Source of the DNA: Armatimonadota bacterium | GTDB lineage: Bacteria; Armatimonadota; Armatimonadia; Armatimonadales; Armatimonadaceae | Assembly (NCBI GenBank): GCA_026392155.1 | Contig: JAPLCP010000026.1 | Coordinates: forward strand, 1 to 37,127 | Direction: 5' to 3' | Length of the DNA stretch: 37,127 nt | Shown here: one piece after another, positions 6,201 through 33,509 of the stretch | Layout: every line of letters starts with the position of its first letter | Numbering within the stretch: position 1 is the stretch's first letter | Translations under genes and position numbers: made by a program | The notes under the pieces: model-generated | Seen by the model: the letters and a program-made list of their open reading frames with translations, nothing else | What the model was told of the DNA's origin: nothing | The model's database searches: none

Positions 6201-6468
6201 AGGCGTACGACGAGTCGCGGCGCGCATGCCGACCTACGTCACGCTCAAGGACGTCAAAAAGCGCTGGGGCGCGGGCCAAGAGGATATTTTTCCCGTCGCG
6301 CAGTTCGAGAAACTCTGGGGCGACATCACGGCGCTCCCGGACTGGCAAGCCAGCTTCGTCGCCGTCCCCAGACTCCGTGGCCAGCAGCTCAAAGACCCCG
6401 CCCAACTCGACGGCTGGCTCCGAGACGGCAGCGCCGCGCACATCGAAACGCTCTGTGACTGGGGGTAA
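3280..6468 (+). CDS. GHMP sugar-kinase-like / UDPGP-type nucleotidylyltransferase fusion
   Basis: This 1062-residue protein joins two enzyme types. Residues about 146-480 resemble fucokinase/heptokinase-type GHMP kinases: [12 protein letters not shown] at 146-157 (sugar-binding motif), [15 protein letters not shown] at 278-292 (phosphate loop) and [15 protein letters not shown] at 331-345. Residues about 685-1060 resemble UDP-sugar pyrophosphorylases: LAAGVGSRW at 694-702 binds the nucleotide and [11 protein letters not shown] near 875 matches the UDPGP core. The likely role is salvage of a free sugar by phosphorylation at C1 and transfer to a nucleotide. Bacteroides Fkp and plant FKGP have the reverse order (pyrophosphorylase first) and a different pyrophosphorylase type. 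The kinase phosphate loop is not canonical, so kinase activity needs proof. The last 20 codons are duplicated at 7281-7341. Confidence 0.75.
6404..6464 (+). repeat. 61-bp direct repeat, copy 1 (gene 3' end)
   Basis: Identical over 61 bp to 7281-7341, with four more matching bases just upstream after one mismatch. It encodes the last 20 codons of the sugar-kinase/UDPGP fusion up to ...CDWG. The two copies flank the coiled-coil + HNH gene pair. Confidence 0.95.
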
Positions 6469-6477: not shown

Positions 6478-6780
6478 ATGGACGAGACTTTACGAAGAAA
6501 GGGGCAAGCGCTCCATTCACGTTCTGCACAAGGCGAAACTCTGAGCGTTGCGGAGCAGGAGTATTTAGCTGCCTACTATGCCGCGATGGATGCGGCAGAG
6601 GCAGCACTCCTTGCCCCCGCTTTTGCCCGTATGGACAGAGAACATGTGGCGATGCAGGAGCACCTGCAAGAACTCCACTCTCTCGTCTCCCGTGAAGAAG
6701 CGTTTCTGGCACGACTGCGGGAACTCCACACAGAGCGCCAAGCGCTCAACTCTGAGCGGAAACGGCTGCTGGTCGCTTGA
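6478..6780 (+). CDS. Small coiled-coil protein paired with HNH nuclease
   Basis: I do not recognise this 100-residue family. It is rich in Ala, Glu, Leu, Gln and Arg and nearly all helical; residues about 50-98 carry heptad-like Leu/Ala spacing typical of a coiled coil. No Cys, membrane segment or signal peptide is present. It starts at an ATG 6 nt after a TAAAAT box. Its TGA is followed 4 nt later by the ATG of the HNH gene, so the two are surely co-transcribed. The HNH protein also ends in a coiled coil, so direct pairing of the two products is a reasonable inference. Roles such as an inhibitor, targeting partner or scaffold are all open. Confidence 0.7.
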   Translation: MDETLRRKGQALHSRSAQGETLSVAEQEYLAAYYAAMDAAEAALLAPAFARMDREHVAMQEHLQELHSLVSREEAFLARLRELHTERQALNSERKRLLVA

Positions 6781-6784
6781 GACA

Positions 6785-7270
6785 ATGCGTCGCTCCCTAA
6801 AAGACCAACTCCGTCAGCTCTACGGTTTTTCCTGTGGCTACTGCGGTGTTACCGAAGGCGACACAGGAGCCGAACTGACGATTGATCACTTCCAGCCCGT
6901 CGTGCACGGTGGGAGTGACCTTATTGAGAACCTGGTGTATTGCTGTCACGCCTGTAATTCCTATAAAGGTGACTACTGGAACCCCGGAGCAGAGCAACGT
7001 CTTCTGCACCCCCGCAATGACGAGCTTAGCTTGCATCTTACAGAGACAGAGATGTATCAGCTCCGAGGACTGACCGCCACCGGGAGCTTTCACATTGCAC
7101 AGCTTCACCTGAACCGCGCTCCGCTGATTGCCTATCGCCATCGGCAGGGCCAGCAACAACTGCTTCGACAAGAAGTGCAGGATATGCGGAAGCGACAGGA
7201 ACGGCTCGCTGAGGAGATCGAACAGCTCTGGAACTTGCTGGAAACGCAATACCCCCAGCAAGATTTATAA
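6785..7270 (+). CDS. HNH endonuclease
   Basis: This 161-residue protein has a compact HNH/McrA-like core near its N-terminus. C17 and C20 (CGYC) and C54 and C57 (CHAC) form a structural zinc site. D34-H35 in TIDHFQP are the first catalytic pair and N58 of CNSYKGD completes the HNH signature. Residues about 120-155 are a Gln/Glu/Arg-rich coiled coil. Such proteins nick or cut DNA with a divalent metal. The ATG at 6785 is chosen because it follows the upstream stop by 4 nt. It sits inside the 61-bp direct repeats, which points to a homing-like or transposition-linked role, but a restriction or phage-defence role cannot be excluded from sequence. Confidence 0.88.
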   Translation: MRRSLKDQLRQLYGFSCGYCGVTEGDTGAELTIDHFQPVVHGGSDLIENLVYCCHACNSYKGDYWNPGAEQRLLHPRNDELSLHLTETEMYQLRGLTATGSFHIAQLHLNRAPLIAYRHRQGQQQLLRQEVQDMRKRQERLAEEIEQLWNLLETQYPQQDL

Positions 7271-7280
7271 CTTCTCGCCT

Positions 7281-7341
7281 AACTCGACGGCTGGCTCCGA
7301 GACGGCAGCGCCGCGCACATCGAAACGCTCTGTGACTGGGG
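7281..7341 (+). repeat. 61-bp direct repeat, copy 2
   Basis: Exact second copy of the 3' end of the sugar-kinase/UDPGP gene, lying 10 bp behind the HNH stop codon. In the old reading frame it gives the same terminal residues and then TGA at 7342-7344. A C-to-T change at 7280 creates an in-frame TAA just before the copy. It is a non-coding relic now. Confidence 0.93.
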
Positions 7342-13663: not shown

Positions 13664-14575
13664 CTAACGACGCTGGGGTGGCCCGTTGGGGTCGGTGTTG
13701 GGAAGGAGGCTCTTCCATAAAACCCCGAGCTGGGTGCCACGGTTGATGTGCTCTCGTGCGACTTTCCCCTCGCTGTTGTGCCGCTTCTGCGCCTCCGTCA
13801 GCCCCTTGGTGAGGGTCGCCATGTCCGCACTCAGCGGCCACTGGGCAAGAATGCTCCCTTTTTGGCCAAAGGTGTCAGGCTCGATGGCGTAGATTCCGGT
13901 GCCAGCGACGATTCCTGCCGCCTTGAGATCCGCTTCGGTGGCAATGGGCGAGAAGGCCCACTTGCCCAGTAGCTCGGGTGCCCATGCCAGCTTGGAGAGC
14001 TGCGCCTCACCGCCGCCCACCGCGACAAGCAGGGGCATGGAGTCGCAAGCCGCCGTGTTGAGTGAGAGCCGAAAGTTGTGCATCGCAGGAATGGCAGTGG
14101 GCGTGCCCTTGGCGGGAAACTTGCCCGCAAGCTCTTTCATCGCCACCGCCATCGCCTCTGGGGTGCGGTAGCTCATCTGCGGGGAGCGGCCCGGACGCGC
14201 CAGATGCTTCGTGCCATCCGGGGACATCATGGCAAAGACCGTATTTTCCAGAGTACCCGCACGGCCTTTGAAGATGCCTTCCAGATACTTCACTTCGGCG
14301 GCATTCTCATAGGTTGCGGGACGGATACAGATAAACGCACGGGACGCGTCTATGACAGGTTTCTGAGACAAGAGACTCTTGTCTGTATTTTGCTTGCCCG
14401 GTCACCAGATGCCGGAGACGCCGTGGCACTCCGGGACTGCGGACATGAGCAAGATAGGACGATTGGTGCGCTTGGCCTCGGCAAGCCCAGCCTTGAGCGT
14501 ACCAAACCAGACAATGCCACCACTCGGGTTATAACCAACCGTTTTCCCCGAGCTTCCAGGAGGTTGAACTTTCAT
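13664..14575 (-). CDS. Thioredoxin-like selenoprotein candidate (UGA at codon 58)
   Basis: Read with one internal UGA (14404-14402) as selenocysteine, this is a 303-residue protein. Residues 20-60 match the start of a thioredoxin fold (WFGTLKAGLAEAKRTNRPIL, then SAVPECHGVSGIW-U-PG). The same frame continues with FICIRPATYEN, YLEGIFKGRAG and LENTVFAMMSPDG, as expected for the rest of the fold. C50 and U58 are the likely redox pair. A SECIS-like hairpin follows. The start ATG at 14575 is supported by a CATAAT box 6 nt ahead. Without recoding it would be two unlinked ORFs, and the second would have only a TTG start with no ribosome site. A fresh nonsense mutation cannot be excluded, but a second UGA gene at 32499 makes recoding far more likely. 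The role is probably redox, cytoplasmic. Confidence 0.75.
14366..14384 (-). promoter_or_regulatory. Bacterial SECIS-like hairpin
   Basis: In the mRNA a perfect 8-bp stem (AGACAAGA with TCTTGTCT) closes a GUC loop. The loop G is the 26th nucleotide after the UGA. Bacterial SECIS models ask for a short apical loop with G in its first two positions, about 16-37 nt after UGA; this fits. It lies inside the coding sequence, as in bacteria generally. Confidence 0.65.
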
Positions 14576-30704: not shown

Positions 30705-31667
30705 ATGCACTACACAAGTTTGGGCCGAACCGGCCTTAAGGTCTCTCGTCTCTGTCTGGGCACCATGAACTTTGGCCCGCGCACCACCGAGCCAGACTCC
30801 TACGCGATCATGGATCGTGCGCTGGAGCTGGGGGTGAACTTCTGGGACACCGCCAATGTCTACGGCGGCAAAAAAGGCGAAGGAATCACCGAGCAGATCA
30901 TCGGGCGCTACTTTGCTCAAGGTGGCGGACGGCGCGAAAAAGTCGTGCTGGCGACCAAGGTCTATGGCGATATGGGCGAGTGGCCCAACACCAGTCGCCT
31001 CTCTGCGCTCCATATCCGAAAAGCGTGCGAGGACTCGCTGCGCCGCCTCCAGACCGACTACATCGATGTCTACCAGATGCACCATGTCTGGCGGGACGCG
31101 CCCTGGGACGAGATCTGGCAGGCGATGGAGCTTTTAGTCGCGCAGGGGAAAGTGCTCTACATCGGCTCATCGAACTTTGCGGGCTGGCATATCGCCAAGG
31201 CGAATGAAGCGGCCAAGCGGCGCAACTTCCTCGGGCTGGTTAGCGAGCAGAGCCTCTATAACCTCAATGCCCGAACTGTGGAGCGAGACTTACTGCCCGC
31301 CTGCGAGGACTACGGCCTCGGGGTAATTCCCTGGTCGCCGCTTGCGGGTGGTCTTCTTGGCGGCGTGCTGGGCGATATTGATGAGGGCTCACGCCGGTCT
31401 GGCATCAAGCTCGATGATGCAGGCCGAGCGAAGATGGAGAAGTGGGAAGGCCTCTGTGCGGAGCTGGGAGAGTTTCCCGCGGATGTTGCCATTGCCTGGC
31501 TCCTGCACCAGAAAGTCGTCACCGCTCCGATCATCGGACCCCGCACGCAGGCCCAGCTGGATGGTAGCCTGCGGGCACTGGAGATTGCACTCAGCGCGGA
31601 GACGCTGGCGAAGCTGGATGAGATCTTCCCCGGACACAAACCGTCGCCGGAGGGTTATTCCTGGTAA
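30705..31667 (+). CDS. Aldo/keto reductase
   Basis: A 320-residue AKR, distinct from the one at 28876. The tetrad is D48 (FWDTANVYG), Y53, K85 (ATKVYG) and H126 (QMHHVW). The cofactor-binding end is APIIGPRTQAQLDGSL. It resembles the YajO/oxidoreductase Tas-like group. AGGA lies about 9 nt before the ATG, 12 nt behind the SDR stop, fitting an internal operon gene. Its TAA stop is reused as the start of the next promoter box. Confidence 0.9.
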   Translation: MHYTSLGRTGLKVSRLCLGTMNFGPRTTEPDSYAIMDRALELGVNFWDTANVYGGKKGEGITEQIIGRYFAQGGGRREKVVLATKVYGDMGEWPNTSRLSALHIRKACEDSLRRLQTDYIDVYQMHHVWRDAPWDEIWQAMELLVAQGKVLYIGSSNFAGWHIAKANEAAKRRNFLGLVSEQSLYNLNARTVERDLLPACEDYGLGVIPWSPLAGGLLGGVLGDIDEGSRRSGIKLDDAGRAKMEKWEGLCAELGEFPADVAIAWLLHQKVVTAPIIGPRTQAQLDGSLRALEIALSAETLAKLDEIFPGHKPSPEGYSW

Positions 31668-31670
31668 AAT
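31665..31670 (+). promoter_or_regulatory. -10 box TAAAAT overlapping stop codon
   Basis: TAAAAT starts with the AKR TAA stop and ends 7 nt before ATG 31678. Confidence 0.6.
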
Positions 31671-31677
31671 ACGGGGC

Positions 31678-32496
31678 ATGCAAACCCTCGTTATTTTTAC
31701 CGCACTCTCTCTCTTGAGCGGAGCACCGCGCTCCGCTCAAGAGACACCGACGGCTCCCACAGTCGCCACACAAGCAGCTACGCCTGCGGTCGCGCGGGAC
31801 TTTTTTCTCTTCTCCAAAGCGCTTCTGAACCTGCGTGAGGGCGAGATCTCCTCTCTGGTCACGATGGACGTGAAGGGTGAAGGCCTTGCCGTGGTGGTGC
31901 AGGCGCAGATCCATCTCATTCACAAGTTCAGCGGTGCTTTTATCAGCGAGACGACGGTGAAGCCGCCAGTGAGCGGAGCCACAAAGCGCTATAAAGTAAC
32001 GCACGATGGCAAGACTACTTGGGTTCAGGACCTGGGTGCCAAGACGTACGCGATCCAGAAAGTCAACGATGACAATGAGTTTCTCGTTCGTGGGCTGCTC
32101 TCCGGGCTCGCAAAGGCGGCGCTAGGCAAGCTCGAACCCGCCCAGCTCAAGCTCCTGACCGCCGCTGAGCCTACTCCCGAGCTTGCAGCAGAGCTCGAAG
32201 TGGCTGTTGCCAAAGACGACGGTAGCCTGAAAGTGCGCAACGAGATCGTAGCGGGTAAGCCTTATCGGGTTTATGAGCTCAAGCCCGACAAAGAAAAAGG
32301 GATTCTACTTATCTATGTCAATGCAGCAAACCGCCCTGAGCGCCTCACCATGGATCTAGAACAAGACAAGCTAAATATCAAGTTCGTTGAGGTTATCAAG
32401 AGCAGCTTGCCGGTTCTTCCGGCGAATACCAGCTTTAAATTTAAGCCCACCCGAACCATGAAGAAAGTGAAAAAGATAGACCTAGGAAATTTCTAA
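31678..32496 (+). CDS. Exported LolA/DUF2092-like protein
   Basis: A 272-residue protein with a short signal peptide (MQTLVIFTALSLLSG... cleaved near SAQ) and an Ala/Thr/Pro-rich linker. The mature part has the LolA-like pattern: KALLNLREGEISSLVTMDVK, repeated beta strands (KRYKVTHDGKTTWVQDLGAKTYAIQ) and VYELKPDKEKGILLIYVN with AANRPERLTMDL. It probably binds a lipid or lipoprotein in the periplasm. It has its own leaderless promoter. The selenocysteine TlpA-like gene follows after 2 nt, so the two are co-transcribed. Codons 12-22 encode a perfect hairpin. Confidence 0.78.
   Translation: MQTLVIFTALSLLSGAPRSAQETPTAPTVATQAATPAVARDFFLFSKALLNLREGEISSLVTMDVKGEGLAVVVQAQIHLIHKFSGAFISETTVKPPVSGATKRYKVTHDGKTTWVQDLGAKTYAIQKVNDDNEFLVRGLLSGLAKAALGKLEPAQLKLLTAAEPTPELAAELEVAVAKDDGSLKVRNEIVAGKPYRVYELKPDKEKGILLIYVNAANRPERLTMDLEQDKLNIKFVEVIKSSLPVLPANTSFKFKPTRTMKKVKKIDLGNF
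31710..31744. repeat. Perfect 15-bp hairpin near the start of a leaderless gene
   Basis: Arms 31710-31724 and 31730-31744 pair without mismatch around ACCGC. It begins 32 nt after the start of the ATG. This could slow ribosomes while the signal peptide emerges or regulate translation; it could also be a captured repeat. Confidence 0.6.
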
Positions 32497-32498
32497 AG

Positions 32499-33509
32499 AT
32501 GAAAGCAATGAGGCAACAAAAAAAGGCACCGCCTAGTGCGGCGCAAGCGGAGCTTGAGAAGCTCCAAAATGAGCTACGCCAGCGGCAATCAACGCTCTTT
32601 AAAGACCTAGATAAGCTAAAAGAGAGTGAGCAGCAAAAAGCCTACGAGACGATTAGTGCGAAGCTGTTTGCGGAGTTTTGGCCCAAGTACCAGAAGCTCA
32701 TCAATACCAGCACCGGCGGTGTTCAAGTCCGCGCCCGCATTGCCGCAATAAACGTGGTGGAGTTGGGGCGGAAGCCATTGCTCGTTGATCAGCTTGTTGC
32801 CGATATTATTCGTGAGAGCCGGGAGCTCCCCGAAGCGGCCCAAGTGGCCATGCAGCTGCGCTACCGGGCCTACATGGGTAAAGAGGCAAAAGTCAAGGCG
32901 CAGCTCGCCGCACTGGGGAAGTCTAAGAACGCTGCCGTGCAGGCCGCCGTGCTCTATGCGACGGCGGAGCTGACCAAGGACACCGACGCCAAAGCCGCGG
33001 TGCCGCTCTACCGGCAAGTGGTCGCAAACTACCCTGCCACGGACTATGCCAAGCGCGCCAGAGGCGCCATTTTTGAGGCGGAGAACTTGCAGGTCGGCAT
33101 GGTCGCCCCCGAGATCACCGGCTCAGATCAGGAAGGCAAGACCTTCAAGCTCTCGGAGTACCGGGGAAAAGTGGTGATCTTAGACTTCTGGGGATTCTGG
33201 TGAGGGCCCTGCCGCGCGATGCTTCCGGCAGAGAAAGAGATGGTCAAGCGACTCGCTGACAAGCCCTTTGCTCTTATTGGAATCAATAGCGATGGCGACC
33301 GGTCGGTCGTCAATAAAATCTTAGAGCGCGAGAAAATCACCTGGCGCAATGTGATTGATGGAAATACCAGTGGTCCGATTGCGATGGCCTGGAATATCAG
33401 TGGCTGGCCCACGATCTATGTTTTAGATAAAGAGGGCAAGATCCGCCACCGGGATCTGCGCGACGACGAGCTCGAAAAAGCGGTGGTCAAGCTTCTGGCG
33501 GAGGCTTGA
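32499..33509 (+). CDS. TlpA/thioredoxin-like selenoprotein (W-U-G-P-C)
   Basis: Read through one UGA (33201-33203) as selenocysteine, this is a 336-residue protein. Residues 10-60 are a charged coiled coil, 60-200 are helical repeats (TPR-like, PLYRQVVANYPATDYAKRA), and 205-336 form a TlpA/redoxin domain: VGMVAPEITGSDQEGKTF, GKVVILDFWGFW-U235-GPC238, MAWNISGWPTIYVLDKEG with the cis-Pro. UGA falls exactly at the first Cys of the WCGPC motif, the strongest possible place for selenocysteine. Downstream codons stay in frame to a normal stop. No signal peptide is seen, unusual for TlpA. It follows the LolA-like gene by 2 nt. Annotated conventionally it would be split in two at 33203/33219. Confidence 0.9.
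33209..33231 (+). promoter_or_regulatory. Bacterial SECIS-like hairpin
   Basis: CUGCCG (33209-33214) pairs with CGGCAG (33226-33231) just after the UGA; the 11-nt loop has G in its second position. Two more G-C pairs can form inside, leaving a GAU loop that begins at nucleotide 15 after UGA. This is slightly closer than the usual 16-37 nt. Confidence 0.55.

Follow-up and report, generated by a model that had tools for sequence, protein, structure and literature searches.

The window analysed here, a stretch of 37,127 nucleotides from an Armatimonadota bacterium (GCA_026392155.1, contig JAPLCP010000026.1), holds on its reverse strand a gene whose frame contains a TGA at codon 58. The question raised by this locus is whether that codon is read as selenocysteine (Sec) and, if so, to which selenoprotein family the product belongs. 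The first-pass annotation had placed an in-frame TGA inside C50-H-G-V-S-G-I-W-U58-P-G, and translation confirmed it as the single internal TGA, with K following the motif. The gene has the following features:

13664-14575, (-): putative selenoprotein gene, 303 aa, translated through the UGA at codon 58, with tandem Trx-like domains
14573-14575 and 13664-13666, (-): start codon ATG and stop codon TAG of this gene
14402-14404, (-): UGA codon of the predicted Sec (U58); among 83 distinct homologous loci, 78 show TGA here and 5 a Cys codon
14426-14428, (-): TGC codon of C50, which is proposed as the resolving Cys and lies in an insertion of eight residues preceding the active-site helix

A second in-frame ATG, 24 nt upstream of the gene's ATG, is an alternative start.

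When the gene is read with table 11 the frame ends at codon 58, as would be expected if the UGA were a true stop and the locus gave a product of 57 residues or were a pseudogene, arising from a recent nonsense mutation or a sequencing error. Against this, the protein was found to be coherent on either side of the UGA, as first proposed, with a dN/dS of 0.11 before it and 0.13 after it in the comparison with the same-genus orthologue, and 106 of the 166 changes after the UGA fell at third positions. Moreover, 78 loci from several phyla, each assembled independently, had TGA at this codon, the other five of the 83 distinct loci had Cys codons, and neither TAA, TAG nor any other codon was found there. 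None of the 83 homologues ended at this position. A pseudogene, a true stop or a sequencing error was ruled out by the conservation downstream of the UGA, and we regard this explanation as vanishingly improbable. The gene at 13664-14575 almost certainly encodes a selenoprotein with Sec at codon 58.

Among 291 genomes of the same phylum, strong homologues with one TGA were detected in the same genus (82% identity) and in three more genomes, and a stop-free homologue, 36% identical, carried TGC at codon 58. A paralogue with its own UGA and SECIS was located on contig C119 of the window's own genome and was 38% identical to the window protein. The scan of a wider contig collection with the single protein detected no homologue, and the alignment-based scan of the same collection gave 80 loci. 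Column 58 was masked in this alignment to keep the search from being biased towards Sec or Cys. These loci came mainly from Planctomycetota, with others from Verrucomicrobiota and Eremiobacterota and from two MAGs, one labelled as Cyanobacteria and one as Proteobacteria. Of 392 Planctomycetota genomes sampled separately, 53 carried the family, and the 55 matches that reached the Sec position each held one TGA, counted irrespective of its column. Three carriers, all with TGA, were found among 289 Verrucomicrobiota genomes, one of them being the genome on which the draw was centred. The search of plasmids gave no match to the family.

In the tree, all of the Cys forms were placed in one subclade (GVSGMW[UC]PGK), which also holds the C119 paralogue and in which Cys and Sec forms are mixed. 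This distribution fits an older Sec and a late replacement by Cys, in a tree that is unrooted and in which the inner branch order of the subclade is not settled.

Of the Sec machinery, SelA, SelB and tRNA-Sec scored over the cut-off in all five same-phylum UGA genomes that were checked, the window's own among them, and none of the three did so in the same-phylum Cys genome. SelA was over the cut-off in 45 of 51 UGA genomes vs. 0 of 5 Cys genomes (Fisher p 1e-4); the six UGA genomes without a full SelA were all draft assemblies, two of them with a partial selA at a contig end. Likewise, in the Planctomycetota sample (n = 392) SelA was present in 50 of the 53 family-positive genomes vs. 192 of the 339 family-negative ones (p 1e-8). 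Since nearly all members have Sec and the Cys forms are few, confined to one subclade and found in genomes with SelA below the cut-off, the family offers a clean case for studying why Sec is kept.

A perfect 8-bp hairpin with the loop GUC beginning at nt 26 after the UGA had also been claimed, and the analysis recovered it with eight Watson-Crick pairs and an MFE of -8.4 kcal/mol:

14366-14384, (-): bacterial SECIS hairpin, AGACAAGA GUC UCUUGUCU, with covariation in the family, absent in Cys homologues and in agreement with the bSECIS rules

The published rules for bSECIS elements are a loop of 3-9 nt, a stem of 4-16 bp, a G in loop positions 1-2, a spacing of 16-37 and an MFE <= -7.5 (PMC13188914), and the window hairpin satisfies all of them. 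The 81-nt region folded by itself was unremarkable (z -1.6); the strong evidence for the SECIS comes from the family rather than from the lone fold of this region. For the pair test, the protein was kept fixed and synonymous codons were redrawn from each gene's own usage. All eight pairs survived in 0.3% of the redraws of the window gene, and the 78 UGA homologues retained a mean of 7.26 of the 8 pairs vs. 4.63 expected (z 20, a value that ignores kinship). Because synonymous redraws seldom retain the eight pairs and the pairs in the family exceed expectation, the window hairpin is not attributable to chance.

The consensus in the UGA copies was GGACAGGA-GUU-UCCUGUCC, in register at nt 18-36, and covariation was detected across the 78 UGA homologues as both-side changes at four pairs (24-30, 23-31, 21-33 and 19-35), consisting of compensatory GC/CG or GC/AU swaps. 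UGA relatives, near and far, had kept the hairpin, and the Cys copies had lost it: none of these five retained at least 7 pairs or formed a stable hairpin (MFE -0.3 to -4.4 kcal/mol). The energy rule (MFE <= -7.5) was passed by 61 of the 78 UGA copies, and the hairpin alone was weaker than -7.5 kcal/mol in the other 17, mostly from Verrucomicrobiota. One Verrucomicrobiota branch, comprising nine loci, has F-U-P-G-Y, not W-U-P-G-K, and its SECIS (CAGAACCGUGAGUUCAGC) is weaker and rewired, with several G-C pairs turned into C-G.

With these elements, a ribosome reaching the UGA of codon 58 would insert Sec, the SECIS just downstream recruiting SelB with Sec-tRNA. We infer this decoding from the machinery and the RNA element, both of which are read from the sequence.

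The two parts of the protein were delimited as follows:

14120-14518, (-): N-terminal thioredoxin-fold domain, residues ~20-152, from Thioredoxin_7, the AF2 model and Foldseek
13781-14101, (-): C-terminal domain, residues ~159-265, from AF2 secondary structure and full-length Foldseek matches

The description of the product as thioredoxin-like held for the N-terminal domain, on which the Thioredoxin_7 matches of the homologues, the AF2 model and Foldseek agree. Of 60 homologues, 58 gave a match to Thioredoxin_7 (PF13899), the best with E 1.2e-7; the window protein itself gave no Pfam match up to E 1, and a sequence search of the PDB returned no relative. The AlphaFold2 model (pLDDT 93.5, pTM 0.90) places a helix from residue 59, directly after U58. 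In Foldseek the first domain matched DsbD-gamma and AGR2; the entire chain matched tandem-Trx proteins (QSOX1, PDI a-b) but superposed poorly on them. The search of a viral fold library gave generic thioredoxins only. From the AF2 secondary structure and the full-length Foldseek matches, the C-terminal domain is probably another Trx-like fold that lacks a redox motif.

The hhalign comparison with same-phylum CxxC relatives (probability 99.6%) aligned W57-U58-P-G-K61 with W-C-x-x-C and opened an eight-residue insertion holding C50. In this profile alignment U58 replaces the nucleophilic Cys of WCxxC and K61 the resolving Cys. Because U58 aligns with the first Cys of WCxxC, the motif in thioredoxin terms is U-x-x-K (or Y). 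The C-x7-U spacing had been described as uncommon, and this stood insofar as no common UxxC or CxxU motif is present, but C50 and U58 do not form a CxxC-like pair whose gap has merely widened to seven residues. Over the 83 loci the resolving position is occupied by K in 65, Y in 17 and F in 1, giving the motif W/F-U-P-G-K/Y. A Cys precedes U58 in the pre-helix loop of all 83 loci; in 81 it occupies the C50 column, and in the other two it is shifted within this loop by one or three columns towards the N-terminus. C83 equals C50 in conservation, but some CxxC relatives have it too. In the cis-Pro column the window protein has Thr112 (T/S/F in the family), next to the invariant Asn111, an uncommon arrangement for a disulfide reductase. 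The protein thus has neither the CxxC/UxxC site nor the cis-Pro of classical thioredoxins.

From this layout, the product would be a tandem thioredoxin-fold oxidoreductase with U58 at the start of the first helix, the position of the attacking Cys in thioredoxins. The selenolate of U58 would attack an oxidised substrate (a disulfide, a sulfenic acid or a peroxide), and C50, in the inserted loop just before the helix, would resolve the intermediate as a selenenylsulfide, which a cellular thiol would then reduce. The second domain would probably bind the substrate, as does the b domain of PDI. The pairing of U58 with C50 is suggested by their conservation in the aligned sequences, and we hold the U58/C50 cycle, with C50 as the resolving residue, to be a working hypothesis with slightly better than even prospects.

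The selenoprotein could alternatively act as a peroxidase or as a metal or selenium handler, U58 working with an outside thiol and C50 having some other role. A peroxidase-type role keeps a real share of the probability because the position of the second Cys holds Lys or Tyr, and Thr, Ser or Phe occupies the cis-Pro column beside the invariant Asn111. No conserved partner gene, redox or other, was found in the flanks (up to 3 kb), so these give no pointer to the substrate; they hold common planctomycete genes named by eye (response regulators, DUF1501-like, sulfatase-like and PQQ-like). The pre-helix loop Cys of all 83 loci and the closest folds, which are those of the oxidoreductases DsbD-gamma, AGR2 and PDI-like proteins, speak against such a role, and we consider it possible but the less probable assignment. 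Many members of the family look exported: putative signal peptides were detected in 72 of 83 by a crude scan of hydrophobic stretches run with no control. The match of the window copy was discounted because it lies upstream of the real start, and this copy has no clear signal peptide.

Two other observations were made in the window. The ORF at 32499-33509 (+), with a TGA at 33201, encodes a TlpA/ResA-like protein with WGFW-U-GPC, a second candidate selenoprotein, of the known UxxC kind. It directly follows the ORF 31342-32496, has a stem-loop after its UGA and gave a Redoxin/AhpC-TSA match that is below every NCBIfam cut-off. Additionally, a 66-nt direct repeat (98%) at 6399-6464 and 7276-7341 is a copy of the upstream gene's 3' end and flanks an ORF at 6578-7270 that by eye resembles HNH endonucleases; the arrangement looks like that of an inserted element which regenerates the end of its target gene.

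The suggestion that the gene might represent an undescribed selenoprotein family was borne out in the catalogues searched, in which no named family fits. In NCBIfam release 20 no family scored over its curated cut-off, and Pfam gave the general Thioredoxin_7 domain only. The May 2026 review lists 119 selenoprotein families, and a family with the W-U-P-G-K motif is absent from them. In the open-access texts searched, no paper naming the family was found; a supplementary table of PMC4807772 lists selenoprotein candidates from two planctomycetes.

The members could instead be divergent representatives of a known family, either Trx7/PDZ (NF041199) or VPGUxxT (NF041382/NF041383), since a Trx7-like N-terminal domain is common to all and weak matches were obtained among 60 members to Trx7/PDZ in 46 (best E 1.6e-4) and to VPGUxxT in 14 (best E 9.1e-6). 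Ten members scanned singly, however, reached 12-21 bits vs. curated cut-offs of 275-350, and the matches covered at most the N-terminal Trx part, often its first 25-35 residues, leaving the C-terminal domain unmatched. The listed motifs, CxxU and VPGU, are also unlike W-U-P-G-K, and membership in either family is therefore judged quite unlikely. The window gene appears to be the founding example of an uncatalogued selenoprotein family. This would probably be an unreported, almost purely Sec family of tandem-Trx redox enzymes from Planctomycetota, Armatimonadota and Verrucomicrobiota, with the layout C-x7-U-P-G-K, an uncatalogued motif, in which a Sec nucleophile without a CxxC partner is served by a resolving Cys in the upstream loop.

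Such a family adds to the selenoproteins of phyla thinly covered by selenoproteome work, being common there (53 of the 392 sampled Planctomycetota), and ordinary gene callers would truncate its genes at the UGA. Its active site tests whether the Trx fold works with Sec and a resolving Cys placed upstream of the helix.

Among the known systems, Trx7/PDZ (NF041199; Table 1 of the review, ref. 61) shares with the new family a Trx7-like N-terminal domain, Sec and Cys forms and a bacterial SECIS. It differs in its CxxU motif and C-terminal PDZ, whereas here the motif is U-P-G-K, C50 lies eight residues upstream of U58 and no PDZ match was found; its model of 390 positions gave 12-20 bits, in the N-terminal part only, vs. 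a cut-off of 300 bits. VPGUxxT (NF041382/NF041383, OS_HP5) resembles the family, judging from its name, in a Trx-like fold with Sec where the helix begins and a UxxT motif that lacks a second Cys, but the motif here is [VI]-[SP]-G-x-W-U-P-G-K and the best of the singly scanned members gave 20.8 bits vs. cut-offs of 350/275. Thioredoxin_7 (PF13899), Thioredox_DsbH (PF03190) and the small CxxC Trx7 proteins of the same phylum have the same N-terminal fold (hhalign 99.6%), but theirs is a WCxxC site without insertion, in contrast to the UxxK, the C50 insertion and the second domain found here. Finally, DsbD-gamma, AGR2 and the QSOX1 and PDI a-b fragments (PDB 1vrs, 9i3f, 6hf1, 9wzl) share the two-domain order and the fold of the first domain (for DsbD-gamma and AGR2 the TM normalised to target length is 0.6), but they are 9-18% identical, superpose over the full length with an rmsd of 13-18 A and carry no Sec.
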